Assembly (NCBI GenBank): GCA_963924555.1
Contig: OZ004581.1
Location: 310,001-374,000 of the forward strand
Origin: Crambe crambe
Taxonomy: Eukaryota > Porifera > Demospongiae > Poecilosclerida > Crambeidae
Reading direction: 5' to 3'
DNA: 64,000 bases
The notes beneath the pieces were generated by a model, which had not been told where the DNA came from, made no database searches, and saw only the letters and a list, made by a program, of their open reading frames with translations. The position numbers and the translations under genes are program-made. Of this stretch, positions 24,106 through 62,575 are shown in pieces (positions within the stretch are counted from its first letter, which is position 1; each line of letters starts with the position of its first letter).

Positions 24106-27100
24106 TGAGGATGGTCAAGATTTGTGACATTGCAGGACGCTCTGTGGGTTCGGCCTTGATGCAGTTCATAATCAGTTTGTGCATATCTCTCCACTTCTCT
24201 GCAGTTCACTCAACATTTCTCGTCTCTTGTCAGGATTAGGCAGTTTTCTGATGATGACTTCACACAGCAGGATGCCATAGCTGTATGTGTCTACCTTGAC
24301 TGTGTATTTTTTACGTGGAGCATCTGGATCAGCAGAAGGGAATATTTCTGGTGCGGAATAGATAATGGCTCCTCGACCAGCAGTGCTTGCAAATTTTGCA
24401 AGATTGGCAGATCCTAGATCACCGACTTTGGCAACATATTGTCCATGAGAGAGGGACTTGAGGAGAACATTGGGAGCACTGAGATCACGATGGATGATGG
24501 GTTCCCAGTATTCATGCAAATAGTGAAGAGCATATGCCACATCCTGAAATATCTTCAAAGTTAGATTTCGTGAAATATCAGCTTCTTTATACTTTGAACG
24601 TAGATTCATATCCATCAGTTGAAGGAGAATCATGGGCATGGGTTGATCGTCGAAGATAGCTCCAATGAAGGCAACTATGTTGGGATGATGTACTTTAGCC
24701 ATGTAGCCAACCTCACGTCTAAGGTCATCGATTGTTCTTCCTTGTTGAAGAATTGCTTCATGAGGCTCTTTGATAGCAATATGAGATCTACGATACATTC
24801 CCTTGCAAACAGTGCCATAAGCTCCACGGGAAATCTCTTCATTCTTTGTCACTTGTGCTCTTGTGATTGAAAGAAATTCAAATTTCGGCTGTTGCTGTAA
24901 TTCTCTGATTCTCTCCTGCAGCAATTCTTTGTCAGTCTCAAGACACTGCAATTGCTAAAGTACAAATATGGCAAATGTTTAGTGTTTTATCATAATAGGT
25001 AATAGTTTTTGATAACTCACCGAATGGTATTCCAGTAGATTTTCATTCCTTCTCTCCAATTCCAATATTTTTTTTTCCAATTCATCTTTCAGGTTATCTC
25101 TTTCTAGCACAACTTGAGCTACTTGCCTTTCAAAATGTTGCTGTTGATTCCTTAGTTGGACACTGAGAACATACCGTACTCGCTCATTCAGATCAGAAAT
25201 TTCTTTCTTCAATTGTCGTTCCAGAGTGCTCCATTCTTTCTCTCTGTCCTTCATAACTGCAGCCATTTTCTCTCTTTCCCTGCATTCATTCTCGTATTCC
25301 TCAGTAGTAAGGGATACCTGATAAGATACTAACATTATAATAATACTTCAATAATGCAAATCAGATACCTCCACTTTTCGTGCCTCTATTTCATTCTTGA
25401 AATCTTCGATATCACACAGAAGTGATTCTTTTTCCATTTTCAGTCCTTCAGCTACAGCTATTGAATTATACTTAGCTATTACTAGTAATGTAATGTTCAT
25501 ACAACTAAAACTCACCATTTACCATTAGCAAGTCCATGTTAAGCTGAGCTAGCCTGTCTCTCTCCTCCTTCATTCTCTGCAGGCGTCTTTCCACAGCACT
25601 TCTAGACGAGATCAAATTCTTTATCTTCTCTTCTTTCATTCTAATTTTGCTTTCCAAATGTCTGACCTCAACCTAAATTCAGGATAATTGTGTGCCACAC
25701 CCACATAATTATCATATTCACACCTGGAAAGAGTGCTGGTTGAACACCACATCTCGTAACCCCTCCAACATTACAGATTGTGGATCAGATGGATTGATCC
25801 TTTGCTTCATATATTCATTAGCTGCTGTCAACCTTGCCACTTCAGCCTGCATGTATGTATATTGAACAGTCTGTCACTCCACTATAACTTAATTGCTACC
25901 AGCTATATACAGCTATAGTACCTCAAGTTCACAGTTATTTTCCTTTTCTGCTTTAATTTTCCCTTCCCAAACGTTCCTTTCTTCTTCAACATTTTGTTTC
26001 TCACGCTGTGGAGCAAATTAGAAGCTATATAGCTACCATAGGTGGTTAAACTTACCTTAATCATATCTAGATGTTCTCTCATTGCTTGTAGAGCTTGCTG
26101 CTGACGAGGGCTTCCATTTTCAGTGGATGATTCCTTTTCAAGCTTCCCTCTTTTCTCTCCCTTGGGTGGTTCACTGCCAGGGTCATTCTTCTCAAATGAA
26201 GTTTACGTGGACACTGGATCACTAGTAAGGTCTCTGCCTCCTTGCTGGTTCATGGCATGTTCTTCACCACCTTGAGCTGTCTGAAGTGGTGGCACAGCAG
26301 TTCCTTGATCATGAGGCACAGGATTGGGGTTGGTACCACTAGCACATTGAGGCATACCACCAGCACGTGGAGGCACACCACCAGCACGTTGAGGCTGCTG
26401 AGGGTACCCCTGTCCTTCAACTTGGGGACTGTATGGCTGTGAATACTGTTGACCAGGTGGACCAAGTGCCCGGTTATCTGGGAAGTTCTGTCTTCCCAAG
26501 CCTTGTGCTTGTTGCTGCTGTTCCTGGAATTGCTGGGCCTGAGGGTATGTATGGTGATGCTTTTGGGTTCCATACTGCAAATGCTGAGCTGCTTCTTTGG
26601 TCCTGGGATGTCCCTGCCAATCATTTCCCTGTGGATAGCCTACAGGTGATGGTACACTGTAAAAACAAATATGTAAAAACAACCCATTTTTAGGTCATCT
26701 GAGTTGCAATTTGCAACTCAGATAACCTAAAAATGGGTTGTTTTTACACATTTATTTTTACAGTGTAGCTGTTGAGGTCGGGCTTGACCTCCAGCTCTTG
26801 CTCCAAGCATGGCATTGGGTTGACCCTGTTGCTGGTTACACTGCTGCTGAGATTGCTGAAGAGGATCATTCTGTGATATAGTGAACTATGTAACCATAAT
26901 TACTAGAGGAACTTCAGAGTGCTCATACACACCTCAAAAGAAACTTTATCAGTTCTTGCTGCATCAGTAGTAAGAGATTTCAGAATCTTTTAATTGTATA
27001 CAGTGATATCAAGCAAAGGCACACTACATTGTGATCTTACTTCATCCTCTTCAGGGCTAAGAGGTGTATCATCAACAAGCTCCTTCTGTACAAGTTTCTT

Positions 27101-28850
27101 AAACTGAAAACTGATAGACTTTTGGTATTCAACTTCATCTTTCAGTAGTTCAATTTCAATCTGAAGTGACTGTAGCTAGTCACAGATATAATAATGACAA
27201 CATGCATATGCATAAATGTATAAAGCTTACCACATTGCGATCTTTTTCTTCCTCATACAGTTGCTCTGCTCGCAATTGAGGATTGGAACTGCCACAATTA
27301 GACCCCTTTGCACCTGCCTTTTCAACCTTTATGGGCTTAGTTTCAACTTTTTTCTTGAATTTTAGAAGCTCTTTGTTATCTTTTCTTGCTTTCTCCAGTT
27401 CTCCATCAAGGTGTACTGCTAAAGCAGTAGAAGTTTTAACCTTGAGTTACATACAATGATCATTATTAAATGATATCACAGCAGTTGTTGAACAGATTAC
27501 CTGGATTTTCAACCCATCGTATTCTTTCAATTTTCTGTGTTTTGATTCCTTCCTCCTCTCTACTTCAAGCTTTAAGTCATCTCTCTCACTACTAACCATC
27601 TCTACTTGTGTTTTCAAGTTCCCAATGACCACTTTTGAAGTATCCAGGTCTTGTTTAAGTTTGCCTGATACTCGTGCCCATTGCTTTCTTTGTGCATTAC
27701 GTTCTTCCTTCAAATCTTTAATCTCAGTATGTAAACACTTCATCTCTTCTTGCATAGCATCCTGTTGCAAGTCAATTAATAGACCCTGTGCTCGCTCACG
27801 ATCTTTACGCTCCTCCAGAAAATCAGCTTTATAAATTTCAGCCTAATAAGTGATGACAGAACATCAAGAGAGAGTCATGTGGTTACCTCTTTACCCTAAC
27901 TACATACCTCAACTCGAGCTGCTGCAATGTCACCAGTGGCTTCCTTCAGTTCAGTTTGGAGTTTTTCAACAGTGTGTTTAGTCACATCAAGTTGAGCAGT
28001 TTTTTCTTTCATTATTTTCTTCAGGTCACCAACTTCAATACGTAATTCTTTACATTTCTGATTATTGCAAACAAAGGCACTGGATTGCTCACCAGTCACT
28101 GCCGGAATCTAAACAAGAGTCATAGTATACAGGTCAGGTATTGTTCAGTGCACTTACTTCCATTGAAGATCTGAAAGCTTCTTATTTAGCAAAATGTAAT
28201 TCTTTTTTCAGAGCTTCATTCTCCCTTCTCAAATGTTCCATCTCTTCATGCGCACTTAAAAACTTCTCTCAACGTTAAACATCAAATATAAGTTGGTGCA
28301 CATCCAAAAAAGATTGAATTCTCCTTACCCCAGTAGTTCCTGGTATGTATCTCTATCCATAGCTTCATCTACTAGCCTCGTGCTCGTTCCCAGACTCTCA
28401 AGCTAGCTCGCTCGTCGAAGAAAAAGGTAAAGTACCGAAAGGGAGGAAGAGAAAAAGGAAAGGAAGACTCTAGCTCTTCTTCTTCTTCTCATCTTCCTCC
28501 CGTGCGGTACTTTAATATTATATATAATGGGAGTGAGAGAGGAAGGCCTGGGAACGGGCTAGCCATCTAGACCACAGAATGCATCCAATATTTATAGAAG
28601 ACAATCAGTATCTCTTACATACCTCGACGTTCATTCTTTTGGTGGACCTTTGATTATTTTACTTTGCTTTTTGGTTGGTAGCTATGTTATAATTTATTTG
28701 ATTATCCTTTTACGAATCTAGGCCCTTTTCAGAGAGCTGCTGCTTCAACTTATAAATCTCAGCTTGGTAATTCCTAGATAGCATCAGCTTCATTTTGTTG
28801 CTCTATTATTTTCTGGTTCCTACTGGAAATCATCCTTTGATCTTTATTCA
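24106..28850 (-). pseudogene. Gene A: decayed coiled-coil/UBAN-like/TKL-kinase paralog
   Basis: Minus-strand exons homologous to genes C, D and F, in the same order: relic of the exon-2 type (28850-28719), truncated exon-3 type near 28360-28320, exon-4 type at about 28272-28158, then 28108-27908, 27842-27501 (UBAN-like ADFLEERKDRERA), 27440-27231, 27169-27041, about 26990-26933, Gln/Pro-rich 26870-26056, then kinase-side coiled-coil exons 26005-25922, 25846-25724, 25672-25516, 25457-25369, 25317-25021 and kinase exon 24954-24172. Lesions: nonsense codon at 28182-28184, 111-bp MITE at 26655-26765, nonsense codon at 26203-26205 (CAA in gene F), and a 1-base deletion near 24200 that ends the kinase early (...ICTN) while the missing C-terminus persists in another frame to about 24106. 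Kinase Lys, HRDLSAPN and DLG motifs survive. The 3' half could still be expressed. Confidence 0.75.
26655..26765. mobile_element. 111-bp palindromic MITE inside a coding exon of gene A (TA target duplication)
   Basis: Two arms of about 53 bases starting CACTGTAAAAA pair almost perfectly around the centre gcaatttgc. Flanking TA is duplicated (26653-26654, 26766-26767), typical of Tc1/mariner-type insertion. Without element and one TA the exon is 702 nt and in frame, and gene F shows the uninterrupted site. On the minus strand the ends read CT|GTAAAA ... TTTTTACAG|TG, resembling intron boundaries. Confidence 0.93.
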
Positions 28851-28989
28851 CAGAAACTGTTATAGCTAGGTAAAAGTACAGACTAACCTTACATATCATG
28901 GCCTTTTTAATTAGCACCGTAAATTTTTCTCCCTTCATTCTCATTAGCTAGCTACTGTGCCTATAGCAACCCCAAGCCTCGAAGCTTAC

Positions 28990-29037
28990 CTTCAAGACCT
29001 CTTTAAAGTGAATGGGAAGCTTAATTTTCTCTGCCAT
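28990..29037 (-). CDS. Candidate first coding exon for gene A (weak)
   Basis: Minus-strand ATG at 29037 opens a 16-codon frame (MAEKIKLPIHFKEVLK) ending in a good donor (GTAAGC) in phase 0, the phase used throughout this gene family. No homology to the first exons of D or F. A TATAAAA string overlaps the ATG, so the reading may be coincidental. Confidence 0.25.
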
Positions 29038-29295: not shown

Positions 29296-32200
29296 CTACT
29301 CCATATTGCTTTCAACTTCTCTAAGGGTGGTCAAGATTTGTGACATCGCAGGACGCTCTGTTGGTTCTGCCTTGATGCAGTTCATAATCAGTTTGTGCAT
29401 ATCTCTCCACTTCTGCTCAGCTTCACTCAACATTTCTCGTCTCTTATCAAGATCAGGCTGTTTCCTGATGATGACTTCACATAGCAGAATGCCATAACTG
29501 TATGTGTCTACCTTGACTGTGTGCTTTTTACGTGGAGCATCTGGATCAGCAGAAGGGAACATTTCTGGTGCGGAATAGATAATGGCTCCTCGACCAGCAG
29601 TGCTTGCAAATTTTGCAAGATTGGCAGATCCTAGATCACCGACTTTGGCAATGTATTGTCCATGAGGGAGGGACTTGAGGAGAACGTTGGGAGCACTGAG
29701 ATCACGATGGATGATGGGTTCCCTGAATTCATGGAGGTAGTGAAGAGCATATGCCACATCCTGAAATATCTTCAAGGTTAGATTTCTTGAAACATCAGCT
29801 TCTTCATACTTTGAACGTAAGTTCATATCCATCAGTTCCAAAATGATCATAGGCATGGGTTGATTGTCAAAGACAGCTCCAATGAAAGTGACTATGTTGG
29901 GATGGTGTACTTTAGCCATGCAGCCGACTTCACGCTTGAGGTCATCATTTGTTGCACCTTCAAGAATCAATTCATGAGGTTCTTTAACAGCGACCCAACA
30001 TCCACGATACGTTCCCTTACAAACAGTACCAAATGCACCACGAGAAATCTCTTTTTTCTTGATTACATGTGATCTAGCAATCGAACGAAAGTCAAAATTT
30101 GGCTGCTCCAGTGATTGCCTCAATCTTTCCTCCAATAGATCTACATCAGACTCGAGTCTCTACAAGAAAAAAAACAGTGGAACCTCCGATGAAGGAAGGA
30201 CAAACCTCTCAACAAAGGACAATCTAAAAGTCTACAAAAAGGCAGGGTCAGTTTCCACTTTACCAATATACACTTTACCAATATACACTGACCATTATAA
30301 TGTCAGTGACAATTCTTGGGCTTAGCTATATATAACATCACTTACCACTACTTTTGACTCCAGGTGACATTTCTGTTGTTCTGCTGACTCTATGGCATGC
30401 CTTTTCTCCTTGCTCTCCCTCTGCAATTCTTGTTGGAGTTCACGGGTCTTAGAGTTGAGCACTTGAATATTCTCTTCCAATTGTTCTATTTCAGACTCCA
30501 GGTACTGAATAAACATAATGACATTATTATCACAGTACTGACACTAGTTAGTTCTCCTGAAACACTCATTGATAAACTTATTCTTACCACCACTTCTTGT
30601 TGCCATTTTTTGGAATCAAGTTTCTGCTGTTCACTGGCAGACAGTCGTTCATGTTCAACTAGCTCTTCTAGGTCATGGATTTCTGTGTTTAACTTTTGCT
30701 CCAAAATATCCCACTCCCCCTGCTTGTCCATCAACACTGCAGCAATTCTTTCCTTATCCTTGCATTCATTCTCATATTCTTCAGTAGTGAGGGAAACCTA
30801 TTATAATTAGCGATTACACAATAAGAGGCAGTCATGTATGAAATTTATACCTCCTTTTTACGAGCTTCAATCTCATCTTTCATATCTTCAATTTCATGCA
30901 AAAGTACTTCTTTTTCTTTCTTTAGTTCCTCAGCCTCAGCAATTTTGACAGCAAGCCGTTCTACAATGCAGTTTCATGACAATGATAGCTAATTATTTTT
31001 GGTTCAACTCACCATTGATATTTGCTTTCATTAATAGCAACTCCATATTATATTGAGCCAGTCTATCTCTCTCCTCTTTCATTCTCTGCAGGCGTCTCTC
31101 CAGTATGATTCTAGATGATGTCAAATTCTTTACCTTGTTCTCTTTCCTAGTGATGTTGCTCTGAAAATCCCTGACCTCGACCTTGAAATTGATTATGTAT
31201 AAATGTAAGGCCTTCTACATGGTCAGGTCCACTGTGATAATTATAGCTATTCATATACCTGCAATTGGAGTATCGGATCCTGTGTTATGGAGTGTGGATC
31301 AGATGGGTTGATCTTTCGTTTCAAGTATTCATTTGCTGCTGTCAGCCTAGCCACCTCAGTCTATCTTAGTATTGATACTAAAACTGAATCCACATGGACA
31401 CTGTACACCTTCATACCTTAAGTTGAGAGTTCTTTTCCTTTTCTGCTTCCATTTCCTGTTTCTGAGCATTCTTCTCTTCCTCTACGTCTTGTTTCTCACG
31501 CTGTGTAATGAAGAGATTGGCATGTAGCTAAGAACGTCTGGGACTTGGGAGAGTTACCTCAATCTTATCCAGATGCTCTTTCATAGCCTGCAATGCATTA
31601 ATGGTTGCCAGTGGATGAGAAACCACCTGCTGAGAGTGAGGTTGATTTTGAGGGTAGATAGCTTGTACAAGTTGCTGTCCTTGTGATCCTCCAGTTCCCT
31701 GCATGGGTGACCTCAACGTTTGATTGTGCTCTTCTTTCCTGAATAAAATTCTAAGGGTACCATAACTATTCTCAATAATCTCTAAAGCACATGCACTGAC
31801 TGTTTCTGCTGCTCATCCAATTGCTTCATCAGAAGATCCACTTGTTTATGAGCTTCTTCCAGCTCTGATGACTCAGAAGATGAGAATACTATGTTTGCTT
31901 TAGTCAGCTCTTCAATATTAGCCTTCAACTGTTCATTCTCCTCCTGCGACAAACAATGACGAGAATCTTTAAGTGCAATGCACCACAGTAGAACAACCTT
32001 GATAAGTGTATTAACAGTAGAACTGTTAATACATTAATTGAAACTTACTTCTTGCTTGGTGTTCTAAGTATTACAAAAGGGAAATTATTTTACTGCTTCA
32101 TTATCTTATGTACAAACAATACACTACAAAAAACACATGTACACTTTAAAGGTATAAAGTTAGTGTATACACTTTCACTGTAGGAACTTCAGTGCACAAA

Positions 32201-34540
32201 CAAGAAGAGAACAGATATTGATAAGGCAATGACTCAGCAAGTTTGTGACTTACTTTGAGTCTTTTAGTCTCTTGCTCCAAGAAAGAGTCTTGTGTGTCCT
32301 TCTTTCCAACTATATAGCTTGACTGGGACACTTGTGGTTGAAATTGGGATTTCCTCTCTTTCAACTTCCGCTCTGCAAGGTTCGCTCGCTTCGTCACAGC
32401 TTCCAACTCCTGGGCCAGTTTTTGGAACTGGTTTGTGTACTGCATCTCCATTTCGGCCATTTTGGAATGAGCCTTTTCCCGATCTTTCCGCTCTGCCTCA
32501 AAATCCTCCCTAAATGTGTCAGACTGAAAGGAAGGGGAGAAAATATCACCTCTTTCTCTTATCAAGGATGTCATATCTTGGCATAATACAGTCACTATGA
32601 AACTTACCATAAATTTTTGTGCTTCTATCTCTCCTTGGAGGTCAGCAACTTGTTTTTTTAATTTGTGGATTTCCTCCTTCTGTTGTTCTGAATGTGTAGT
32701 CAGCTCTCCAATATTAGCCTTCAACTGTTCATTCTCCTCCTGCGACAATAGATACTACAATGACAAGAATCTTTAAGCATACACTCAATTTACTAACCTC
32801 AAGTCCATCTGATTTTTTCTTTAAAGCTAAGACTACTTTAGCGGTAGATGCGTTCCGTTGTACCAATGCAGCCAAAGTCTCACCAGTAGAGTCAAGTTTC
32901 TGTAGCTGTTTGTTCAGTATCTCTATTATCTTGTCTTTCAACTTCATTTCCTCATATAACTTGGCCAGTTCTTTCTCATGCTCCTCACCGAAACCCTGCC
33001 TACTTCCAGTGGCAATTGTCATGGGTAACTGGGAGGTGGCTGGACGTTGCTGCTGCCATAACCCTTCCACCTCCACACCCCCTCCCACTTCCTCTCCCTC
33101 ATGTGTCTCCAGACCCTCTTCTTCCTTGCATTGGTGGGGGTGTGGGCTGCAAGACTTTAATGACATATACATCATGTAATGATGTATGTTAGTCTGGCGG
33201 CACCAACCCTTTTCTTGGGGTGGGGGGAGGGAAAGGGTCTGGTAACTCTAGCATAAATGAGTTGTGTCATTACATCACAGATTACATCACCATAAATATT
33301 TCCGCGCACATATTTGCAATTGATGGGTGGGGCTTACTACTAGTCATGGCTCAATGTGTTTGGAGACAGGAGGCTGATAAAGTTTGTAGAGAGCATAGCA
33401 GCCAAGGAAAAGGGCTAGAGAAGAGGGGAGAGAGTCTGGATGTTCTCAGAATAATTACCCCTGCTACAGTCTGTAACTATTCAGGCTTTATTCAGTCGAA
33501 TCTAAATGCTTCTTGAAGTGCTCATCATGTACAGGGGAACTGTGGTCACTAGGTAGCTGTTCTGCCATCGCTACACTACAGTCTACAGGTAGCCAGCCGA
33601 GAAGCACACGGGTAATTAAGAAGAATGTGTGCACCAATTTCTAGCAATCTGATTGGGCCGCCGTTCTGGCAATGCTAGAGTTACCAGACCCTTTCCCTCC
33701 CCCCCAACCCGAGAAAAAGGAGGTAAAGGGTCGGCCTGCCAGACTAGATGTATGTGTGGACGGTATTCTCCAATATCTGGAGAGGTGTGGACGGTATTCT
33801 CTCCAATATCTGGGGGAGTCCATGCAATGTGACAGCTAGAGGTAGGGTCCGGACCGGTAGCCTGCAGGACCCGCTTAGCAAGACAGTTACCCTACCTGTT
33901 GAAATCTTTGGGATTCCTCCGATCCTTTTTGGGGATTCCCTCTTTTTAAATAGTTGGCGACAGTGGAGATGATTCCACCGCCAATGGCAGCCTCTTCCTC
34001 TTCCCTTAGAGCTGCCAATTTCTTAGTGGCTCCTTCGCTACTTTTCAGTTTTGATTTCAAATGTCGGAGTTCATCTCTAATTGAGTTGTTCTCTTCTTGT
34101 AGTTTTGCTACCTGTTTATCTTTTTCTTTCAATCTCTCAACTTCTTGTTCGTGCTGAACAACATGTTCTTTCAGTTCTTTCTCTAGCTCCTCTATTTTAC
34201 TGTTCTTGAATTGAAGATTTTTGGACAATATCTTTTGGAGCGAGTCATACCTTTCTTTTTGTTTATTTCTTTCACCTGCCACTTGTTTAGGCATAGCAAA
34301 CTGACTCAATTTCTTGAAATCTTTCTTATAAGGGATAGCAGTTTCCCATGATGACAATTTCTTTTGCTGATATAATGAAGCACTAGCACCAGACGAAGTC
34401 ACACCAGCCCCTGAAGGAGGTCCAGGAGGAGGATCTTCAGGTTCTTCAGGCTGTCCTGGTGGATTCATAGAGTCGTACTTCTCATACGTTTCACCATTTT
34501 CCTCCTTAGTCTCCTTGGAGGATTTCTTTCGAGTGAACAT
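29296..34540 (-). CDS. Gene B: chimeric coiled-coil/UBAN-like scaffold with C-terminal TKL-type kinase
   Basis: Exons: 34540-33896 (ATG at 34540), 33146-32798, 32739-32608, 32523-32254, 31943-31801, 31738-31558, 31500-31417, 31360-31259, 31181-31013, 30960-30851, 30797-30588, 30504-30346, 30159-29296. Exon 1 gives an acidic/Pro-rich head, a Lys/Glu coiled coil and GIISTVANYLKRGN. Exons 2-5 match gene E closely, including DFEAERKDREKAHSKM (UBAN-like). Exons 6-13 match the kinase genes A, C and D. The kinase has ISRGAFGTV, VAVKEPH, HRDLSAPN, KVGDLG (DLG for DFG) and SAPEMF, and ends at TAG 29296, complete. Exon 3 fuses an E exon-4 head to an E exon-6 tail. Phase does not close between exons 1 and 2 as read, so an exon is missing from my model there or the link is broken; a mobile element occupies that intron. 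Confidence 0.75.
30174..30262. mobile_element. Partial copy of the CAGTGGAACCTCC repeat
   Basis: Starts acagtggaacctccgatgaa and includes ctctcaacaaaggacaatct. Lies in the last intron of gene B and lacks the right end. Confidence 0.6.
33190..33746. mobile_element. 557-bp non-autonomous DNA transposon with perfect 9-bp target duplication
   Basis: Termini TAGTCTGGCGGC and (inverted) GCCTGCCAGACTA. A second inner inverted repeat, gggtctggtaactctagcat, lies at about 33235-33254 and returns inverted at 33672-33691. Flanked by GATGTATGT at 33181-33189 and 33747-33755. Same termini and same 9-bp duplication as the 66-bp element at 11736. No transposase seen. Inserted in gene B intron 1. Confidence 0.9.
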
Positions 34541-41000: not shown

Positions 41001-41634
41001 TTGCATCCTTCATCCTCTGAACTTCATATTTCAAGTCATTTCTCTCTTCACTAATCTTCTCTATCTGTTCTTTCAAGTTAGAAATGAAGAGTTTTGCACT
41101 ATCCAGGTCTTGCTTCAGTTTGCCAGATACTAGTGCCCACTGCATTTTCTGTGTATTACGTTCTTCCTTCATATCTTCCATCTCAGTGTGTAAATGCTTC
41201 ATCTCTTCTTGCATAACACCTTTTTTTTCCTGCTGCAAGTCTATCAATTGACCCTGTGCTCGCTCACGATCTTTACGTTCCTCCAGAAAATCATCTTTGT
41301 AAACTTTAGCCTAATAAATGATGCACAGTACATCAAGAGAGAATCATGTGGTTACCTTCAAGCTACATTACCTCAGCTCGAGCTGCTGCAATGTCATCAG
41401 CAGCTTCCTTCAGTTCAGTTTGGAGTTTTTCAACAGTGTGTTTAGCCACATCAAGTTGAGCAGTTTTTTCTTTCATTATCTTCTTCAGGTCACCAACTTC
41501 AATACGTAATTCTTTACATTTCTGATTATTGCAACCAAATGCACTGGATTGCTCACCAGTCGCTGCCTGGACCTACAAAATAAGAGCCATAGTATTAACC
41601 TTCACGTTCACGCTGCACTTACTTCCACTGACAT
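38007..41634 (-). CDS. Gene C: coiled-coil/UBAN-like scaffold with C-terminal TKL-type kinase, 982 aa
   Basis: 13 exons sum to 2949 nt in frame: 41634-41623 (MSVE), 41572-41372, 41310-40960, 40903-40667, 40609-40484, 40425-40375, 40323-39943, 39887-39804, 39738-39616, 39560-39392, 39335-39247, 39186-38884, 38828-38007. UBAN-like DDFLEERKDRERA at about residues 77-89, heptad coiled coil over most of the first 700 residues, a Gln/Ser-rich linker at about 330-450, then a kinase at about 730-975: SRGAYGTV loop, AIK Lys about 755, helix-C Glu about 774, HRDLSAPN about 848-855, DLG about 872-874, SAPEIF. The best-preserved kinase member. The four-codon first exon is a remnant of a longer exon in F, so an upstream start is possible. 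Likely a cytoplasmic signalling kinase recruited to ubiquitin chains (inference). Confidence 0.85.
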
Positions 41635-47815: not shown

Positions 47816-47938
47816 TATTTGTACTAGTCTGCTCGCAGGCCGGAGCCCCACCCCCTCTAGGATAGGTCATACTTTAACCACGTGATCGTTTGTAGAGCGC
47901 ATGCGCGCAGTAGCCAGTAGCTAACTAGCTGAGAAAAT
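47816..47938. promoter_or_regulatory. 123-bp divergent promoter between genes D and E with NRF1-like site
   Basis: Start codons of D (47815, minus) and E (47939, plus) are only 123 bases apart. GCGCATGCGCGC at 47897-47908 matches the palindromic NRF1 consensus. No TATA box. Confidence 0.6.
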
Positions 47939-50900: not shown

Positions 50901-53900
50901 TTACAGACAGAGAAGGCGTTGAGATTCATAGAGCATATAATGTGTATTATTGTTGATCATGGTTGCCTCTCTCCTTCATCTCTACATGTTTTGTTTCTTC
51001 TCCTTTCCAGCATCAGCAAGCATCTTCCATGGGGAAACATGCAAAGATGGTCCCTGGACTGACCTTTGGCGGTAATAACGACAAAACCTCTTTCAACTTC
51101 GATGGAGAAAAAGGGAAGGTGATTTTCAAGACCTCAGCACATGCCAATGCTGTCCCTCCCTCCTCCTCTGCCTCTGATGAAGGTCCTTGTCCAGATGCCA
51201 GCTCTATGGAAAGAAATGCTGCTTCTAATAAGGAAGAAACAGACCTTCTCCCTGAAGGTCTCATAGCTAGCACAGAAGATCATGCAAGTGGGTATTCAAG
51301 ACAAAGATCAAATCTCACAGAAAGCTACAACTCGCAGTCCTCTACCGAAAGTGGTGATAAAGTTTTGACCCCTCATAGGTCAATTCCTTTTGATAAGGAC
51401 TATAAGAAGAGAATCCATCGCTCTAGCAGCTCAAAAAGTCACAGCTCAGAGGAAGGCAGTGAGGATGTGACTACTAAACGCCCAATGGAGAGGCAGACCA
51501 GCTCAGGAAAGCAGAAACATGCTTGTGTTGGTGTGGGCAATATCACACCGGTGGATTCTGTTGGAAAACCCGTTGCTAGTGGCAATGATGAGTCAGCAAG
51601 AAGTGGGACTTTGCAAGTTATGCTTGAGAGCGATGCTGCAATGGAAATTGCTAGGAAAGATGAAAAAATCGGAGCTCTAATGAAGGTGATAGAAGAGAAA
51701 GATAAGGTCATTGTTATGTATTGGGAGGAGAGGAGGAGGAAGGCTGAAGGTGGTGTGGGAAATGATCTGAACAAGCAACTTGAAGAGTACACTCATCAAA
51801 GACAACAAACCGCCGAATTGGCTCGTTTGCATTCAGTTGAGGAACATGAGAAACTAGTGCAGGAGGAGCTCCAGGCTTGTAAGAAAGAAAGGAATCAATA
51901 TGAAAGGCAGATGATTAGACTTACTGAGGAACTGAGCCTCAAAGAAGAGCAGTTTAAATCATTAAAGCACACTTATGGTGAGTTGTGTTCCGAGAATGAA
52001 AGACTATCGAAGTTAAAGTCTGAAGAAGATTTTGATATTACCACTCTCAAGAAGGAGCTTCAAAAGAAGGACAAACTCTTGAAGAAGATGAAGGAACATG
52101 TTAAAGAGATGTCTGCAAATGCTGCCATAGATGCTGAGGAACCATTGTTCCTGCCTGCTTCTGCCATGGGGACACACGAGGGAGAGGAAGTGGGAGGGGG
52201 CGTGGAGGTGGAAGGGTTACAGCAGCAGCAACGTCCAGCCACCTCCCAGTTACCCATAACAACTGCCACTGGAAGTAGGCGGGGTTTCGGTGAAGAGCAT
52301 GAGAAAGAACTGGCCAGGTTATATGAGGAAATGAAGTTGAAAGACAAGACGATAGAGGCACAAAACAGACAGTTACAGAAGCTTGAGTCCACTGGTGAGA
52401 ATTTGGCTGCATTGGTACAACGCAATACAACAACTGCTCAAGTAATCAAAACCTTAAAGAAAAAGGCAGATGGACTTGAGGTTAGTGTATGCTTAAAGAT
52501 TCTTGTCATTGTAGTATCTATTGTCGCAGGAGGAGAATGAACAGTTGAAGGCTAATATCGAAGAGCTGACTAAAGCAAACATAGCATTCTCATCCTCTGA
52601 ATCAGAGCTGGAAGATGCTCGTAAGCAAGTGGACCTCCTGGAGGAGCAGTTGGACGAACAGCAGAAACATTCAGACAAGTATGTGTGTTGTATAGATTAC
52701 TGAGAGTATACTGTAATTAGAGGCTTGAGATTACTAAGAGTATACAAGAATAATATTAATTATTTCAGGCTTGAAAGGCATTTAAAAGTGAATTTTGATC
52801 AATCAAAGAAGGCTGCAGAGAGGATCAATCATTTAGAGCAGAAAAATGTAGCCCTACAAGCTGTCGTTAGCAACACACAGCAGGTATGGATACTCTAAAT
52901 GAAGCACACTTAATCCGGCAATTAATGTGGTGTGCTTTATTTAGGAGTTGCAGGATGCACAAGAGCGTGCAACTAAGATTGCTACACATTCAGAGCAGCA
53001 GAAAGAGGAAATTCACAAGTTGAAAAAACAAGTCACTGACCTCCAAGGAGAGATACAAGCACAAAAATTTACGGTAAATTTTCTGTGACAGTTAATTTGT
53101 CACTGATAAAATTTTTGTTCCCTTCCTTTTTCAGTCTGACACATTTAGGGAGGATTTTGAAGCAGAGCGGAAAGATCGGGAAAAGGCTCATTCCAAAATG
53201 GCCGAAATGGAGATGCAGTACACAAACCAGTTCCAAAAACTGGGCCAGGAGTTGGAAGCTGTGAGCAAGCGAGCGAACCATGCGGAGCGGAAGTTGAAGG
53301 AGAAGGAATCCCAATTCCAAGCACAGTTGTCACAGTCAAGCTATATCACTGGGGAGAAGAAAAAGCTTGAGGTGAGTTCAAAAAGCTTAGAAAATGGATT
53401 TGCTGAGTCAGCAATGCTTGATGTTATGGATCATGGTACTGTTTAGGATGAAGTGTTGTCCAAGACACAGCAAGTGAAACAGTACAAGAAACAAGCCGAC
53501 CACTACAAGGATGAATTGGCCACCTTCAAAGTCGCTCATGATGCACAGAAGCAACAGGTTGGGGAATAAGTTGGCACAACAAAAGTGGATATCAGACTAT
53601 CAGTATTTTTATTTTATTTTTTACAGATTGAACAGATGGCGATGGAATTGGAGAGAAGTGCAAAGATTGTAAAGAGTCTCGAGCATGAAAATGGCAACCT
53701 GAAGGCCAAGGAGCGCCACCAGTTGGCTACTGGTGGACGAGCTGTTGGAAGGGTCTCCCCCTCGGCATCTGAGAAGATCGAAGAGCTGGAGAGACAAGTG
53801 GATGCACTTCAGATGGAAAAAGTTGTAAGTTAATTGTGAGAGGCAAGAAATGAAGATTATTTTGAATGTTTCAAGATTTTGCAGTCTCAAGTGGAACAAA

Positions 53901-54044
53901 TACAACCTCGTTCCCAAGCCCCACCCATTCACTCTCAAGCTCCACCCACTCATGCCCAAGCCCTTCCTACTCATTCCTCCTCGTCTTCAAGAGATAGGCT
54001 AGGGCATAATGTATGTTTGCACCTTACAGGTGACCTCTCTCTTA

Positions 54045-54096
<52 letters not shown>

Positions 54097-55605
54097 TTCT
54101 CTCTCTCTCTCTCGCTTTCTCTCTCTCTCTCTCTCTCCCTCTCCCTCTCTCTCTCTCCCTTCCTCCCTCTCTCCCCCCCTCCCCTCTAGATTTCGGCTTC
54201 AGCTTTGCCTAATCGTTACCCTCCCCTTGGGAACCAGGCCAAGGCTCACTCAGTGGATGACCCTTCTGTGCACCTGTCCGGCTCTCAGGGGAGGCAAGGG
54301 AGAATATTCCAAGGCGACCGCAACCAGAGGTGCGTGTAACAATGCTAGTGTAGCAGTGAAAGTTATGATAAAAGGGATCCATTCAACTTTTGTTTGTTCA
54401 TTATGTGTTTGCTTCTTATTTTTCGCAGCTCCAACATGCAGTACAGAGATCACAGCCAATTTTCTCACTCTCTTCGAGGTAGCGAAGGATCTCCAAGGGC
54501 TCATACCTCCTTCCACCACCCACAAGACAGCCATAACATGGGATCTTCTCGTAGCACCCAGCCCCCTCTGGACCAGCTCAACAGGCACTCTACAAACGCA
54601 TCAGCTTCTGGGGACTCTTACAACTTCCCTTCAAATGCGGATCCAGCTTTTGCACAGTCCTCAACCTCCAATGCCCCTCGACACAATCTCAACCCCTCTT
54701 CAAACCCCGCCCACCAGTATAATGTGAATGTATCCAATGGCTCCACCCATCCCTACAATGTTCCACCTGTGTATGTGCAAGGGAACATTTCTCCCTTTTC
54801 TACAGGTTCCACATCGCAGTCCAGTCAACGACCTTCGAACTTCATCCCTCGAAACCACAATGGGTCATACTTGCAGACAAACTCGAACGAGTATCCTACA
54901 AGATTTGGTAACCCGAGTTCCCCTTCTGCCCTGACAGGGTACACCCCGTCTGGCCCTGCCTCCCTCCCCGGAAATATCCTCTCCCCGAAACACCAGGAGG
55001 ACCCACAGAGGGGGAGACCGGGGGGTGGCTTGTATCGTGCCCATGATGACAACATGGCGATGGGTGGGGGCTCGGATACCGTCGAAAAGGACTCCCCTCC
55101 GACCTCTTTTATGTCACCACCTGGACCCAGCTCACTTAATTTGCAATCAGTACAGGGGCTCCTCCCACCACACCCACCAAGGCATCACAGTCATCAATTA
55201 GCCCCACGGCAAGGACAGGTGGGAGGGGCTGGTGGTCAGACTGGTTCTGGGCGTGGTCTCCTCGGGCAGAATCAACGTACTTATGGAGGGAATGTTATTT
55301 CTCAGTCAACCACACCCACTTCTTCAGCAATTAATCCTGTGAAGCATTCAAAAGGAAGCGAAACCAGTTTGACCAGTTTGGGCCCTGGAGCTGGAAACCA
55401 ACTGGAAGTCGGAATTGACAGTGAGATAGGAGCAGCCGCTGATGATATCAAGAACTTGGTGGGTGGTAACCAGTCTGTGGGTGGAGCTTCAGAGGATGCA
55501 CCCTATGACCCCAACCTCGTTTGTCCAACATGTGGGAAGAAGTTTAGAATAGGACAGATACAGAACTTTAGGCACCATGCTGCTTCATGCACCCGCAAAA
55601 AGTAG
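47939..55605 (+). CDS. Gene E: NEMO/optineurin-like coiled-coil scaffold with UBAN-like motif and C-terminal C2HC zinc finger, 1619 aa
   Basis: 12 exons sum to 4860 nt in frame: 47939-48661, 48844-49128, 51011-52480, 52530-52678, 52769-52883, 52945-53073, 53135-53371, 53447-53557, 53627-53824, 53885-54010, 54190-54329, 54429-55605. Residues 1-540 are Ser/Thr-rich and disordered. Long coiled coil from about 550 to 1130 with EDFEAERKDREKA at about 963-975, matching the DFxxERxxRE core of UBAN motifs. A Pro/Ser/Asn-rich disordered region follows. The end is VCPTCGKKF...HHAASC with C1593, C1596, H1610/H1611, C1615 (CxxC...HxxxC), the position of the zinc finger in NEMO and optineurin. No kinase. 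Likely a cytoplasmic adaptor that binds ubiquitin chains (inference from motifs). A TATA-like string in intron 2 suggests an alternative start. Confidence 0.85.
49258..49405. mobile_element. Copy of the CAGTGGAACCTCC repeat (inverted orientation) in gene E intron 2
   Basis: Contains ttttgtccttcgtagagagg, ctcttttggaggttattttg, tgtcctttgttgagaggttt and tcctctttcagggta, matching the reverse complement of the 18866 copy. Ends are degraded. Confidence 0.65.
50175..50360. repeat. Degenerate tandem repeat (ggggttatcctcactgta / ggggataattatcat)
   Basis: Four to five irregular units of about 40-60 bases in gene E intron 2. Confidence 0.7.
50670..50680 (+). promoter_or_regulatory. TATA-like element, possible internal promoter of gene E
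   Basis: tatatataaag follows a GC-rich ggagggcggg and lies 330 bases upstream of exon 3. A transcript from here would start translation at an ATG early in exon 3 (MGKHAKMVPG, 51029) and skip exons 1-2. Confidence 0.3.
54045..54180. repeat. (CT)n-rich microsatellite
   Basis: Long CT run with ctcgctttct interruptions, ending in the pyrimidine tract before gene E exon 11. The long Ser-Leu reading frame through it is an artefact. Confidence 0.95.
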
Positions 55606-55807: not shown

Positions 55808-58800
55808 ATGGCAACGGAACAAGGTGGTGCCGGCGGTAGACCTCCTGAATCTGATAAAGGCGGCGGTGGAATCATCTCCTCCGTCACCAACTGGTTCACA
55901 AGAGGGAATTCCCAGAAAGGGTCGGAGGAATCCCAATATAAGGTGCGATCAGAACCCGACTCAGATTGGAATGTTGTTGTAAGTTTAGGTAGTCTACTGA
56001 GGTCGTGCATTGGGAGTGACTGAGGGGAAGGGATTCTTGGTTCGTGTTGTGTTGTGTATCATTTCTTATAGTAACACCACCCTGATATGGAGGCTATTAC
56101 CTAGTCTTGCGCACCAGACGTATTATTTGCGAGGAAGAGAAGGGAAAAATACATCTGGTAAGGTAACAATCGCCAGGTTTCCGTTCTTTCAAAGAATGTG
56201 CATCACATGACTCATGGGATAATAATTTACCACATGTGGGTGCGCATACAATTAAAAATCAGTCTATAGCTAATAAAGCTAGCTGAGATATAGCATGGCC
56301 AACTCAAGTTCCAAGAAAGGTCTTGCAGTCCAACTAGTCTATAGCTAGCTATTCTGACCTACCTGTTGGAAGACACACAATGCTTCCCGAACCAAAGCTC
56401 TAAATCTTGCTTGCTTGATAGCCCAACTTGTTGGCAGCAGCAGAGATTGCACTGACAGAACTCTCCGAATAGAGACACTCGCCGCTAGCCATGGCAGGCC
56501 AGATAATTGTTTATGAGCCACACGCACGTGCGCGTTATTGAATTTTTGTGGTGGCAACAACATTCTGTCGTATGTCAAGAAAACCTGGCAATTGTTACCA
56601 GACGTACTTTTTTTTCCCCCCTCTCTCGCAAAAAAAAATGCAGCTGGCTAGCGAGACTAGCTATTACCTCCCTTTCCTTTCCTTGGGATTATGAAACTAC
56701 TTTTTATCAATCTAGGAGGAATATCAACTACATAGGCCTAAACCCTCACCCCATTCTGATGACAGTGACAATTTGGAACAGTTTCAAGAAGCTTTATCTG
56801 CCAGAGTAGCAGAAGTCGATATATTAAAGGGGAAAATAACCAAGTTATCTCAGACGATTTCCGATAGGAACCAGCAAATAATAGCATTGCGGCAACAAAA
56901 TCAAACTGATGCTAGTAATTACCAAGCTGAGATTTCTATGCTGAAGCAGCAGCTTTCTGAGCAGACCAAGAAAGGGCCTAAATTCGGAAAAGGATCATCA
57001 AACATAAAACTTGAGGAACATGCCAAAAAGCAAAGTGAAATAATCAAAGATCTTCGTCAAAAAATTGAATGTTTTGAGGTAAGTAAGAGCTTTCTATTCT
57101 GAGGAGTATGTATTTCATTGTATTGGGTCGATCTTTCATAATTTTTAATAGATGGCGTCTTCTGATAAAGATTCATACCAAGAACTGCTGGCAGAAATTG
57201 AGGTAAATAATATTTTAGATATGTAACCAACTTATTAGCTATGTCTTTAGGATGAAAGGGACAAATTGAGAGAGGATTTTGTGAGTGCCCGTGAAGAGAT
57301 GGACCATTTGAGAAGGGAGAATGAAGCTCTGAAGCAAGAATTACACTTTAGTAAACAAGAAGCTTTCAGATTTTCAATGGAAGTAAGTGTTGTGTGTACA
57401 TTCTCCTTGTGACTAAACCATCTGTTGACTCCTGTTTAGTCTCAGGCAACTGGTACGCAATCAAGTGTCTTTGGTTGCAGTAATTCTGAATGTAAAGAAA
57501 TGTGTAGCAAAATTGGTGATCTGAAAATAAAACTAAATGAAAAAACTGCTGAACTTGATACGATGAAACAAACACTTGAGCGACTCCAAGGTGAGCTGAA
57601 GGAAGCCGCTGGTGACATTGCTGCAGCTAAAGTTGAGGTATATAATGTATACATACATAATTATGTAGTGAAACCTCCTGCATGGTCACGTATCTAGCTA
57701 TAGTGCTTACAATAAGACCTGGTCATGTGACCAAATGTATTTACAGTGAAACCTGGTCATGTGACCATCAAAACCTGGTCATGTGACCACATAGTACTTA
57801 CAGTGAAACCTGGTCACATGATCCCATCTCTCTACCCAAAACCACTTCCCTAACATTATTTTGTTGTTTGTTTTGTTATTGTTTTGTTGTTGTTTTTTAA
57901 AGGGCAACCGCATACCAAGTTTTAAAAATGATATTGGTGCTTTAGAGAATAGCAACATGAATATTATGTCTGGTACTGCCTGTGCAAAGGGCACTGTTTG
58001 ATTTTCCATGCATAAAGCTTTCATGGCTGACTAGCTAGCTTTAGTGCTATATTTGAAGCCTTTCTTTTTTAGTCTAGCTCTAAACTTTGTCAGCATGGGC
58101 CTAGGTTCAAATTGCTCAATGTCGTACCTATGCTATGTAAAGAAAAGAAAATAGCATCCTGCTGGCCTCACTGAACTAGCTAATGGCTGAGAACTAGAAG
58201 ATGGCATATAATTTTTGGCTCTAGATGATAGTAGTGAGTACTGTAAGAGCAGAAACATTATAATTTAGTTTTATTAATTTTCTATTTAGTTTATAATCTG
58301 TAATTAATAATTATAGGCTGAAATATATAAGTCTGATTTCATGGAGGAGCGTAAGGATCGTGAGAGAGCTCAGGGAGCGTTGGATGACTTACAGCAGAAG
58401 GAAAAGAAGGAAGGCGTTATGCAAAAACAAGTCACTCATCTACGTGCTGAAGTTAAAACCTTGAAGGAAGAACGAAATACAATGAAGATGGAATGGGCAC
58501 GAGTCAAAGCTAAACTAGAAAAGGACTTTGAGAGTTCAAAACTGGTTATTGGTAATTTGAGAGATCAAGTAGAGAGGGTGAGTGAACAAAGAGATGACTT
58601 GAAGTATGAAGTAGAGAGGAGGAAGGAATCAAAGAACAAAAAGATAAAAGAGTATGACAAGATGAAAGTCCAGGTAATGTTAGCAGTACAACTATACATG
58701 TCTCACTAACGATTTATGTATGTAATTCAAGCTTAAAAAATCTTCGGCTTTTTCGGTACACCTTCATGGAGAACTGGAGAAAGCAAGAAAAGATGTTAAG

Positions 58801-61275
58801 GAGCTACAAAAGTTTAAGAAGAAAGCTGAAAGTAAGGCCAAGAAAGTGGAAAAAGAAAAAACAAACACAAAAGCATCTAATCGCTCAAGTGCTCATCCTC
58901 AATCTGAGAGCGAGAAAAACTCGCTCCCAGTGGAACGGTTATATCAAGAAGAACGAGATCGTAATGAAGTGAGTTCTTGATGATTGTATAGCAAGTATAT
59001 TACTTCTCTATAGTCACTAGAGATTGAAAATGAACAACTGAGAGAGGAAGTAGAATACCAGAAATCCTTGTTTAAAGAACTTTTACAGAAGGAACTCACT
59101 GATGCTATTCCTCTTAGCCCTGAAGATGATAAAGTAAGTTAGTCACATTTATGGTTATAACTATGAACTTAAGGTCATGACTATTTTACAGAAGAGTCTG
59201 AAATCTCTCACTGATGATGCAGCAAGCACTGATAAAGATCCATTTGAAGTATGTAGAAGTATTCTGAAGTTGCTCTGATTACATAATGCACTCTATCACA
59301 GAATGATCCTAATTATGTGGCATCTGAGGATCCCGAACTTCCGCACCTTGACAAGCAGTTTATGAATGCAAAGGGAACAGGTTCCTATCTCTCTCAAAAT
59401 CCTGGAGAGGCTGGAGTAGGTGCCCATTCACAAGACCTTTCTAACCAGAAACCCCAAAGTGGACCTGCACGTGCTCATGAAAATGTTCCACAAGAAATAA
59501 GAGATGAAGGTTCCTCAAATCTGGATCATGAAGCAGCACAGAGAAAACACCGCAGTGCTCCTCAAAACACTGATCAATGCCATCAGCAACAACAGCTCAC
59601 AGGTGTCAGCACAAGCAGTGATCAACGCAAGCTGCAGCAACAAGGACAATTTCGTTCCACAGATCAAAAGTTGAGGCCACCCATGCAGGGAGGTGGAGGA
59701 TTACAAGGACCTGTACGAGTCACTCATCCTCAGGATAAGTCTCTGCAACAACAGCAGCTGTCTCCTGTTCATAATCCACCACCAGGAATCGATGGGTGGC
59801 AGGGCCGAGCTAGCACTGGGGAAGTTCCACACCACCATCAACGGAGTGGAGGTAACTCTCACCATGCCAATACTCATCCCGTCCAATCTCAGCAACAATT
59901 TGAGCAGCGGCAACAACTTCCTCCAGGAGGTGGTCCAAATATTCCAGCATCTGAAGGGGAAGGACCAAACCAAAGACAAGCCACGCAGGGAGCTGGTGAT
60001 CAAGGTCTGACTCGGCCACCACATGAAGCACAGCATCAGGGTCAACCAAGGACTGGGGGAATACCACAACCTGCTCAGCCACAGTATGGACCAGAACCTT
60101 CGTACCGTCCTAACACCTTTCCTCAATGGCAGCAACAGCAACAGCAGCATGGTGGTTTACACCCTGCACATGGAGCTGGAGGTCATCCTCAAGTGCCATC
60201 TTCTGTGAACCGTCCACCGGGGCAGGAGTATCATGAAGGAACAGTCCGATATCAACAATCTCAGCAGCAGTTTAACCAGCAATATGGTCAACCCAATGCC
60301 ATGCTTGGAGCAAGAGCTGGAGGTCAAGCCCAACCTCAACAGCTACCATCACCTGTAGGTCATCCACAGGGAAATGATCAGCAGGGACATCCCAGGACCG
60401 AAGAAGCAGCCCAGCATTTGCAGCATGGACCCCAAAGGTATCACCATACATACCTTCAGGCCCAGCAATTCCAGGAACGACAGCAACAATCACAAGGCTT
60501 GGGAAGACAGAACTTCCCAGATAACCAGGCACATGCTGGTCAGCAGTATCCACAGCCATACAGTCCCCAAGTTGAAGGACAGGGGTACCCTCAGCAGCCT
60601 CAACGTGCTGGTGGTGTGCCTCCACGTGCTGGTGGTATGCTTCCACGTGCTGGTGGTACCAACCCCAATCCTGTACCTCGTGATAAAGGAACTACTATGC
60701 CACCACTTCAGACAACTCAAGGTGGTGGAGAACATGCCATGAACCAGCAAGGAAGCAGAGACCTTACTTATGTGAATGTTTTTGATGGAGAACATCAAAC
60801 TGGAGTCGATCATTGTCACCCTCGACCTGACTGCTCTCACAATGATATGACAACAAATCGACAATCCAATGTCCACTCTATAGACACCCAGACATCAGTC
60901 AACTTTGAAGAAAAGCCACACAGTGCGAACTTCTCCTCTCAGACCTCGAGGCCTACTAGTGATGCAGTGTCCACGCAAACGTCATTCGAGAAGAATGACC
61001 CTGGCAATGATCCACCCAAGGGAGAGAAAAGAGGGAAGCTTGAAAAGGAGGCATCCACTGAAAATATTCTGATAGAGAATATTGATGACGAAGTGAAGCA
61101 GATGGCACAAGAAGTGAGAGAAGAAGTGGGTGAAGACCGTAAACGTTTGCATACCATGCAACAGAAACCTTTCGATCCTAACTTGGTGTGTCCAATGTGT
61201 ACGAGAAAGTTCAGAATTGGAGAAATACAAAAGTTCAGAGCTCATGTGGATGCTTGTGAGGGAACATCTGACTAG
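55808..61275 (+). CDS. Gene F: coiled-coil/UBAN-like scaffold with Gln-rich region and C-terminal C2HC zinc finger, 1207 aa
   Basis: Ten exons, every intron phase 0, total 3624 nt: 55808-55942, 56716-57078, 57152-57202, 57251-57382, 57440-57637, 58317-58673, 58732-58968, 59014-59133, 59192-59248, 59302-61275. The N-terminus has GIISSVTNWFTRGNSQKGSE, shared with D and (diverged) B; it could be an amphipathic helix. Coiled coil spans residues 60-540, with SDFMEERKDRERA at about 299-311 (UBAN-like). Exon 10 (residues 551-1207) is one long Gln/Pro/His/Gly-rich disordered segment ending in FDPNLVCPMCTRKF...AHVDAC (C1180, C1183, H1198, C1202). Exons 1-9 are the template from which the first halves of A, C and D can be aligned. 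It is intact and appears to keep the full ancestral exon set. Probable ubiquitin-binding adaptor (inference). Confidence 0.87.
55943..56715. other. Intron 1 of gene F
   Basis: No coding segment recognised. Contains a CACGTG-like palindrome in cgcacgtgcgcg near 56524 and otherwise unremarkable sequence. Confidence 0.5.
57665..57825. repeat. Short repeats of tgaaacctggtcatgtgacc
   Basis: Four direct copies of (t)aaaacctggtcatgtgacca or close variants in gene F intron 5; the rest of that intron (to 58316) shows no feature. Confidence 0.75.
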
Positions 61276-62575
61276 TGATAAATGCTTTACTGCAAGCTAT
61301 TTTTGCTCTATAATATTCTAGAGTGATTGTAATTTTGTACTGCGCATGCGTGAACACTCCGCCCACGCATGGTTGCTAGGGAAGATTAACTTAAAAACTA
61401 TTCATGATAGAAATTTCTAACTTGCACCACATTATTAAGTATCAGAATAGTACTACATACACAAAAAATAAAGGAGGACCAATCAAAATGACTGATGTTA
61501 TGATTGATTTCATTCTCAAGGTAAACTGCGTTGCATCTCAATGACCACTTGGAATAAATGGCTGATTCTCCTTCACCGTGGCTCTCTCTTTGGCACTTCA
61601 AACGATCACTAGTTCGTCTCTTTGGCACTTCAAACGATCACTAGTTCGTGCAATCTGTTGTTTTTGCCTTTTAGTCAGTTCTCTGATTTGTTGGCAAAGA
61701 CGGCCACGAAGCATCAGCACTCCCTTCGCGGTGTAGCGTAGTGACTGCGAGCAAGTCTCTCTGTTTGTCCTTAGTTTGCCCTCGACCTGACTGCTCTCAG
61801 AATGATATGACAACAAATCGACAATCCAATGTCCACTCCGTAGTAGTCTGGCATAGCACCGCCCACCGCTGACCTTTTGATCCTAACTTGGTGTGTCCAA
61901 TGTGTACGAGAAAGTTCAGAATTGGAGAAATACAAAAGTTCAGAGCTCATGTGGATACTTGTGAAGGAAAGTGATTATACTATCAATGGTTTACTGCAAG
62001 CTAATAATTTGTTCTCTATTCTTGTAGGTGGTACATTGCAATTAGTAACTAAAATTAAGGTGTTTGCTGCATAAAACAGTGACCTAGGGGGAGGAAACAG
62101 TGACCTAGGGGGAGGGAGGGGGTGTCACTATACGATGGGCAGCTCCACTGATTTTAGGATGGGGGGGCAGTGCGCTTGTGCACCAGAAAACCATACCCAC
62201 TATCACAAGATCATATTGAATACCTTCATATAATGATATAAAATCTTGAGCTACTTCTTGTAAGTCGAGTGTGTCTGAGATGCTTGTGAATGTGTAGTCT
62301 TTTTTCAGACATTGTCAATCTCAAGCATTGTTATTGCAGCTGTATCTAATAGGTGAGCTGAAGCCACATGCTGAAACCACATGCATAAATTGCAATCATG
62401 TTACACAATTCTGGGGGCAAAGACCCCCTACTGTACCAGTTGGGGCCACCCCCATGGAGCCGTCCCTGCACGCCATAGGCAGTTCTACGCATGCGTATAG
62501 GAAGTGATTTTCCTCTGGCTCCACCCACTTGTTTATAAATAATTTCTAATCGATGCATGCACAGCTACCAGACGA
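61276..62575. other. Intergenic region with gene F tail fragment and short tandem repeats
   Basis: Contains an NRF1-like tgcgcatgcg (61341-61350), a 34-bp tandem duplication at about 61581-61648 (tctctttggcacttcaaacg unit), the duplicated gene F tail described separately, and cagtgacctagggggagg repeated twice near 62090. Confidence 0.6.
61783..62010 (+). pseudogene. Duplicated fragment of the gene F 3' end including the zinc finger
   Basis: 61783-61838 copies 60824-60885 of gene F (ctcgacctgactgctctcag...), and 61876-62010 copies 61172-61305, encoding FDPNLVCPMCTRKF...AHVDTCEGK then TGA. The coding sequence between the two parts is missing and replaced by unrelated bases. The finger cysteines and histidine are intact but no start or upstream exon is evident. 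Confidence 0.8.

Follow-up and report, generated by a model that had tools for sequence, protein, structure and literature searches.

Predicted single-chain ubiquitin-reader kinases and their kinase-less siblings in a recombining gene cluster of the sponge Crambe crambe

A 64,000-nt stretch of the genome of the sponge Crambe crambe (C1:310001-374000, contig OZ004581.1, in a genome of 143 Mb and 119 contigs; hereafter, the window) carries six clustered paralogues, genes A to F, each with a predicted UBAN-type ubiquitin-binding coiled coil; A-D lie on the (−) strand and E-F on the (+) strand (Table 1). At the sequence level, the layout is a coiled-coil scaffold with the UBAN and a Q/P-rich linker, followed by either a coiled-coil stalk and a TKL kinase or a putative UBZ-like finger. 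NEMO, optineurin, and the ABINs are readers of ubiquitin chains that leave the next signalling step to separate proteins. Here, with a probability of roughly 0.58, we read the cluster as encoding a tandem, recombining family of single-chain, ubiquitin-gated reader kinases of a sponge innate pathway, together with kinase-less siblings. The architecture, as predicted from the genome sequence and our own gene models (built from codon usage, generic splice weights, and a bonus for paralogous frames), is a new one made of known parts. A first-pass annotation of this DNA had proposed six paralogous coiled-coil genes in one cluster, which the UBAN core found in all six bears out; the common coiled-coil body that it also proposed holds for this core but divides into two body types, F-type (A, C, D, and F) and E-type (B and E).

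The core motif DFxxERxxRE was found in 6 of the 2,032 six-frame open reading frames (ORFs; at least 20 aa) of the window, all six within the cluster, and in none of 20,000 shuffles of the gene B model. Among 11 aligned UBANs of the genome (an alignment made without three further copies, namely L021 and L025, which are near copies of L024 and L026, and L022), the core D, F, E, R, and E were invariant and another R was changed once. With the register set by motif spacing, and with D474, E478, R479, and R482 taken to be the residue letters of optineurin, these four positions were kept in six of the seven window cores, the exception being the second copy in gene D (R479 to H). The same four residues of optineurin bond to linear ubiquitin (PMC4999505). 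The core count and the contact positions uphold the earlier suggestion that a UBAN-like motif is common to the six genes. In separate Pfam scans covering the UBAN exons of C and D and the scaffolds of E and F, CC2-LZ (PF16516, the Pfam NEMO/UBAN model) was the top match of the E scaffold (E = 1e-5, 26.3 bits), the F scaffold (E = 4e-7, 30.8 bits), and the first UBAN exon of D (E = 0.014). That the UBAN is a generic coiled coil was set aside, the coil of the B kinase stalk having no CC2-LZ match at E ≤ 0.05; the controls were this stalk and the coils of two database proteins, P0001 and P0002.

Comparison of the F UBAN exon with the PDB returned 14 rows, headed by TNIP1 (two sequences, E = 0.0016), with TNIP2 further down, ten RNA polymerase beta chains in between (coiled-coil likeness), and one more polymerase last. 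For a UBAN encoded on contig C13 (see below), TNIP1, optineurin, and TNIP2 made up 9 of 10 rows (E = 0.0085 to 0.66), again with TNIP1 first. The nearest solved UBAN is therefore that of ABIN1/TNIP1 by resemblance, and the predicted UBAN appears closer to ABIN/TNIP than to NEMO. ABIN1/TNIP1 and ABIN2/TNIP2 share the UBAN core and its coiled-coil context with the window genes but, unlike A-D, are not known to carry a kinase in the chain.

The kinase ORFs of A-D encode predicted kinases of the TKL type. Residues K59, D153, N158, D175, and G177 (catalytic Lys, HRD Asp, Asn, metal-binding Asp, and Gly) were invariant in 10 aligned rows, and kinases A, B, and C carry DLG in place of DFG. For the D kinase, the first 16 of the 60 PDB matches listed were CTR1, TNNI3K, roco4, and TAK1, with ABL, LRRK2, IRAK4, and one EGFR in lower rows among the matches listed. 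An IKK/TBK1-type kinase was rejected on these best matches. Canonical kinases of that type are neither shown nor excluded in the genome: the IKK scaffold domain (PF18397) reached a best E of 0.25 in an exon-by-exon search that could miss it, and the TBK1 ubiquitin-like domain (PF18396) a best E of 5e-4, below its cut-off.

Each of genes A-D contains one junction ORF with an F-like linker, followed in frame by the stalk start ALQAxxEHLxxIx and a donor site; the ORF of D holds an in-frame TAG. Specifically, the linkers matched the Q-rich exon of F with 90% identity over 29 residues (A), 47% over 36 (B), 49% over 109 (C), and 54% over 128 (D), with BLASTP E-values of 4e-17, 7e-7, 2e-22, and 2.5e-36, respectively (low-complexity filter and composition correction off). 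In gene A, the stalk starts just past the last F-shared residues, at the point where F continues to its finger, and a motif search found no finger in A-D. Because the junction ORF holds both linker and stalk start in A-D, we read scaffold and kinase as one gene at the DNA level. Only B is intact from start to kinase in its model; in C, the UBAN and the kinase are both open, and A and D are disrupted. The earlier claim of four genes ending in a TKL kinase holds for four kinase ORFs but is qualified by the frameshift in A and the stop ahead of the kinase in D.

Next, we compared the modules between paralogues. All four combinations of body and C-terminus are present: the finger goes with an F-type body in F and an E-type body in E, and the kinase with an F-type body in A, C, and D and an E-type body in B. 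This fits the earlier suggestion that the C-termini are interchangeable. At the DNA level, the kinases of A and C are 98% identical and their UBAN exons 82% identical; stalk exons 2-3 of B are 89-90% identical to D versus 74-75% to A and C, and for the B kinase the identity is 85-88% with A and C versus 80% with D. The cluster is a recombining mosaic. The N-terminal motif GGGIISSVTNWFTRG of F occurs in close form in D and B, and it is possibly an amphipathic helix in these three genes. The ratio of nonsynonymous to synonymous substitutions (dN/dS; NG86) was 0.16-0.29 for the kinase (15 pairs among A-D and copies on C13 and C18), 0.15-0.43 for the F-type UBAN exon (6 pairs), and 0.27 for the B/E UBAN, the second UBAN exon of D and the A kinase past its frameshift being left out. 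The UBAN and kinase exons are both under purifying selection.

The C-termini of E and F carry CxxC-H-C fingers, in agreement with the first-pass annotation that two genes end in a zinc finger. The finger had no Pfam match in the scan of the E and F scaffolds and gave weak PDB matches to pol kappa (E = 0.0041), TAX1BP1 (0.035 and 0.19), CALCOCO2 (0.74), and designed proteins; together with a comparison of the finger model by VIA-align, which covered few families only and in which absence is uninformative, these matches lean toward UBZ fingers. NEMO/IKKgamma likewise combines a coiled-coil scaffold, CC2-LZ/UBAN, and a C-terminal finger, as in E and F, but it recruits IKK, whereas the predicted window kinase is covalent and TKL. 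In addition, the NEMO kinase-binding domain (PF11577) was not among the matches of the E and F scaffolds and gave none at E ≤ 1 genome-wide in an exon-by-exon search, which could miss it, so the window scaffolds have no detectable N-terminal kinase-binding domain at this level. The initial label "NEMO/optineurin-like" is thus apt for the optineurin contact positions but less so for the ABIN1/TNIP1-like UBAN, the UBZ-leaning finger, and the undetected NEMO kinase-binding domain.

We then searched the genome for related loci. The F-type UBAN exon was matched at 6 places among 14 candidates, all in the cluster (five exons, one matched twice), and the E-type exon at 2 of 5 candidates, which are E and B. 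UBAN-like ORFs on C16 and C1 had no kinase within the 3 kb read around each, and one is followed by a C-terminal finger. A UBAN-like ORF (L022, C1:789695-792793) lies beside a reverse-transcriptase-like ORF and is perhaps a UBAN fragment carried with a retroelement. On C13, two tandem genes have the reverse of the window order, with a TKL kinase exon ending 0.34 and 0.56 kb ahead of the UBAN exon and, as judged by eye, open coiled-coil stretches between kinase and UBAN in both copies. The second of them, cut by hand from a model that merged both, combines Pkinase (E = 9e-32) and CC2-LZ (E = 8e-4) in one chain. Because the C13 kinases are only ~30% identical to the window kinases, this kinase-UBAN fusion is probably independent of that in the window. 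The four junction ORFs and the dN/dS of 0.15-0.43 across both modules support a predicted covalent scaffold-kinase, a reading strengthened by this reverse-order pair. In the genome sequence, reader and kinase fall in one gene, most cleanly in B and with C in support, and A and D show a cluster in flux. The proposal that the kinase is covalently part of the scaffold is supported in part: of the four fusions, one is complete in its model, one more is open through both modules, and two carry disruptions.

Relatives of the window kinase numbered 136 of 375 candidates scored. One on C18, 72% identical, shares a model with an AIG1-like GTPase and a long repetitive coiled coil. On C6, one of eight copies was modelled; its kinase is 42% identical and its CAP-Gly-like N-terminus falls below the cut-off. 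A kinase at C13:3969740 is 91% identical to B, and the 7.5 kb read ahead of it contain no UBAN; the gene finder joined this kinase to a preceding glycosidase-like exon, a join that we do not trust. CYLD USP exons matched 17 places in the genome, all on C21, where a kinase match lies 0.5-0.8 kb upstream of 4 of the 6 first-USP-exon places and where one 794-aa model, within 4 kb read, combines kinase, CAP-Gly, and a CYLD-type USP. This USP call rests mainly on the CYLD exon search, since UCH reached only E = 0.006. PF18091, which we take to be the C-terminal domain of HOIP, the builder of linear chains, is present in the genome above its cut-off.

Among proteins, a gene B query returned 7 matches from 7,998 scored (three with a window-type kinase and four plant kinases), a C13 query returned 2,287 from 8,000 scored, and the F scaffold alone returned none at E ≤ 0.001 from 8,000 candidates scored. 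The UBAN-like motif was in none of the 127 matches listed (7 from the B query and 120 of the 2,287 from the C13 query); absence outside this genome is weakly tested, because the predictions behind many of these proteins probably ignore introns and 2,167 C13-query matches lie outside the list. Among the matches listed, most of which carry no species name, the four named as animal are from sponges (Halichondria panicea P0003 and P0106, Ephydatia muelleri P0059, and Geodia barretti P0116), and the four other species-named matches are from plants. The Halichondria protein P0003 comprises CAP-Gly, USP, a coiled coil, and a window-type kinase. This CYLD-like kinase shares the coiled coil and TKL kinase type (45-50% identity to window B, C, and D), but its partner is a deubiquitinase with CAP-Gly, whereas that of the window is a UBAN reader. 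P0001 and P0002, from ENA contigs, carry a kinase-like domain with HCN for HRD, a coiled coil, and a second kinase of the window type. Among the titles and abstract openings listed in searches of the open-access literature, none dealt with a UBAN-kinase or a sponge CYLD-kinase protein, although a prior description is possible.

As a mechanism, we propose that the scaffold would form parallel dimers and that the UBAN would bind Met1/K63-linked ubiquitin chains. Clustering on chains, aided by the stalk, would join the kinase domains and lead to trans-autophosphorylation. E and F have the same UBAN and no kinase; they would be adaptors or competitors, and mixed dimers are possible. The pathway would most likely be NF-kB or another innate one, given that TKL kinases are found joined to CYLD as well, both in this genome and in Halichondria.

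Several observations weigh against single-chain reader kinases. CC2-LZ stayed below its curated cut-off of 35.3 bits everywhere, the best score being the 30.8 bits of the F scaffold, and none of the 21 matches at E ≤ 10 in the genome scan exceeded it; moreover, the C UBAN exon ranks HAUS-augmin3 above CC2-LZ. The profile search for UBAN similarity thus gave CC2-LZ as top match for E, F, and the first D exon, but below the cut-off and outranked in C. The same kinase family is joined to modules without a ubiquitin link (the AIG1-like GTPase), and related stalk-kinases also accompany the CAP-Gly-like module. These points would suit fused proteins that are real but whose UBAN-like coil only dimerises without reading ubiquitin, the stalk-kinase being a cassette for immune output in general that has been moved from sensor to sensor many times. 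We regard this as the least probable of the alternatives, given that the residues fixed across the 11 copies are the optineurin contacts with ubiquitin (PMC4999505) while the surrounding coil varies, and that the B stalk coil lacks a CC2-LZ match.

The remaining points against concern the genes themselves: they are models of our own, predicted from DNA, two of the four kinase genes (A and D) carry disruptions, and the linker match of B is the weakest (E = 1e-5 with filters on; with filters off, the best of 200 shuffles reached 4e-5 versus the observed 7e-7). The gene A kinase frame breaks near 24205, with the remainder in another frame at 24062-24205, and its linker is out of frame in the model and holds an inverted-repeat insertion (26643-26765), perhaps a small transposon. 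In D, the junction ORF (44284-44754) is interrupted by the TAG (44392-44394) between scaffold and kinase, before the stalk, and the frame of the second UBAN exon breaks after the core, at about 45458-45477. It is unlikely, if somewhat less so than the other alternatives, that E and F work while A-D are failed fusions becoming pseudogenes, as these lesions and the unplaced 5′ ends of A and C would suggest; the dN/dS ranges of the kinases and UBAN exons, the open B and C, and the retained active-site residues argue otherwise, and the A and D lesions are possibly assembly errors. We likewise consider it improbable that scaffold and kinase genes merely alternate, juxtaposed by duplication, with the kinase transcribed alone. 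The stop dividing D, the modest linker homology of B, the unplaced starts of A and C, and the UBAN-less C13:3969740 kinase would fit such separate genes, but A, B, and C each have one uninterrupted ORF in which an F-homologous linker and the stalk start precede a donor site.

Table 1. Predicted features of the cluster and related loci (window positions unless a contig is given)
Feature	Position	Strand	Description
Gene A	24172..28268	−	F-type scaffold, linker with insertion, stalk, TKL kinase; 5′ end not placed in model
Gene A parts		−	UBAN exon 27501-27842 (core 27795-27824); junction ORF 26056-26202; stalk exons 25021-26005
Gene B	29296..34540	−	13 exons, 1172-aa model; open from start to kinase; E-type body and TKL kinase; exon 2 start (33247) doubtful
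Gene B parts		−	N-terminal F-type motif 33908-33982; UBAN exon 32254-32523 (core 32476-32505); junction exon 31558-31738; stalk 30346-31500
Gene C	38007..41572	−	F-type; open from CC2 through UBAN to kinase stop; first exons of model not convincing
Gene C parts		−	CC2 exon 41372-41572; UBAN exon 40960-41310 (core 41263-41292); junction exon 39943-40323; stalk 38884-39887
Gene D	42434..47815	−	Start 47815; F-type; two tandem UBAN units; TKL kinase
Gene D parts		−	N-terminal motif 47708-47773; UBAN exons 47265-47615 (core 47568-47597) and 45460-45715 (core 45668-45697, R479 to H); stalk 43344-44233
Kinase ORFs	A 24172-24954, B 29296-30159, C 38007-38828, D 42434-43288	−	Pfam E 9.7e-31 (A) to 1.6e-35 (D)
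Gene E	50855..55605	+	Open 1246-aa model; E-type UBAN exon 53135-53371 (core 53153-53182); C-terminal finger 55492-55602
Gene F	55808..61275	+	N-terminal motif 55853-55936; UBAN exon 58317-58673 (core 58335-58364); Q-rich exon 59302-61275 with finger 61159-61272 at its end
Second copy of F finger	61873..61971	+	Downstream of gene F; 94% identity at protein level
L059+L060	C13:3889952-3901076		Two tandem genes, N-terminal TKL kinase then UBAN coiled coil
L033+L062	C18:3171987-3175333		AIG1-like GTPase, coiled coil, and window-type kinase in one model
L075	C21:5018259-5021823		Kinase, CAP-Gly, and CYLD-type USP in one model

The stop of gene F is that of its own finger (61275), the gene-finder model having overrun into a PP2C phosphatase. 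The neighbours in the window are Calx-beta repeats, RCC1 repeats, a DUF7802 protein, and this phosphatase. Between genes D and E, a predicted Ser/Thr-rich ORF (47939-49259, + strand) has no identified domain.

Optineurin, whose UBAN has the same linear-ubiquitin contact positions as the window UBANs, recruits a separate TBK1, whereas A-D would hold a TKL kinase in their own chain. The GPCR-TK and GPCR-TKL/K receptors of choanoflagellates and sponges (PMC12716839) are likewise cases in which TK/TKL kinases were covalently fused to sensors, more than once, near the animal base; unlike the window proteins, they are membrane receptors without a ubiquitin reader. More broadly, we put forward, tentatively and at somewhat less than even odds, that Met1/K63-ubiquitin machinery was covalently wired to TKL kinases several times in this lineage: as UBAN-kinase in the window, as kinase-UBAN on C13, and as CYLD-kinase on C21 and in Halichondria. 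Such wiring would in part take the place of recruiting a separate kinase, as IKK-NEMO and TBK1-optineurin do. The opposite-order fusions in one genome suggest that a link between reader and kinase was favoured repeatedly. Provided that the proteins are made, a reader-kinase fusion would bypass a central step in innate immune signalling. A one-chain reader-kinase would directly test whether chain-driven clustering alone suffices for kinase activation and would offer a minimal reconstitution system, and it would demonstrate that the ubiquitin/NF-kB axis was also wired in other ways in early animals.

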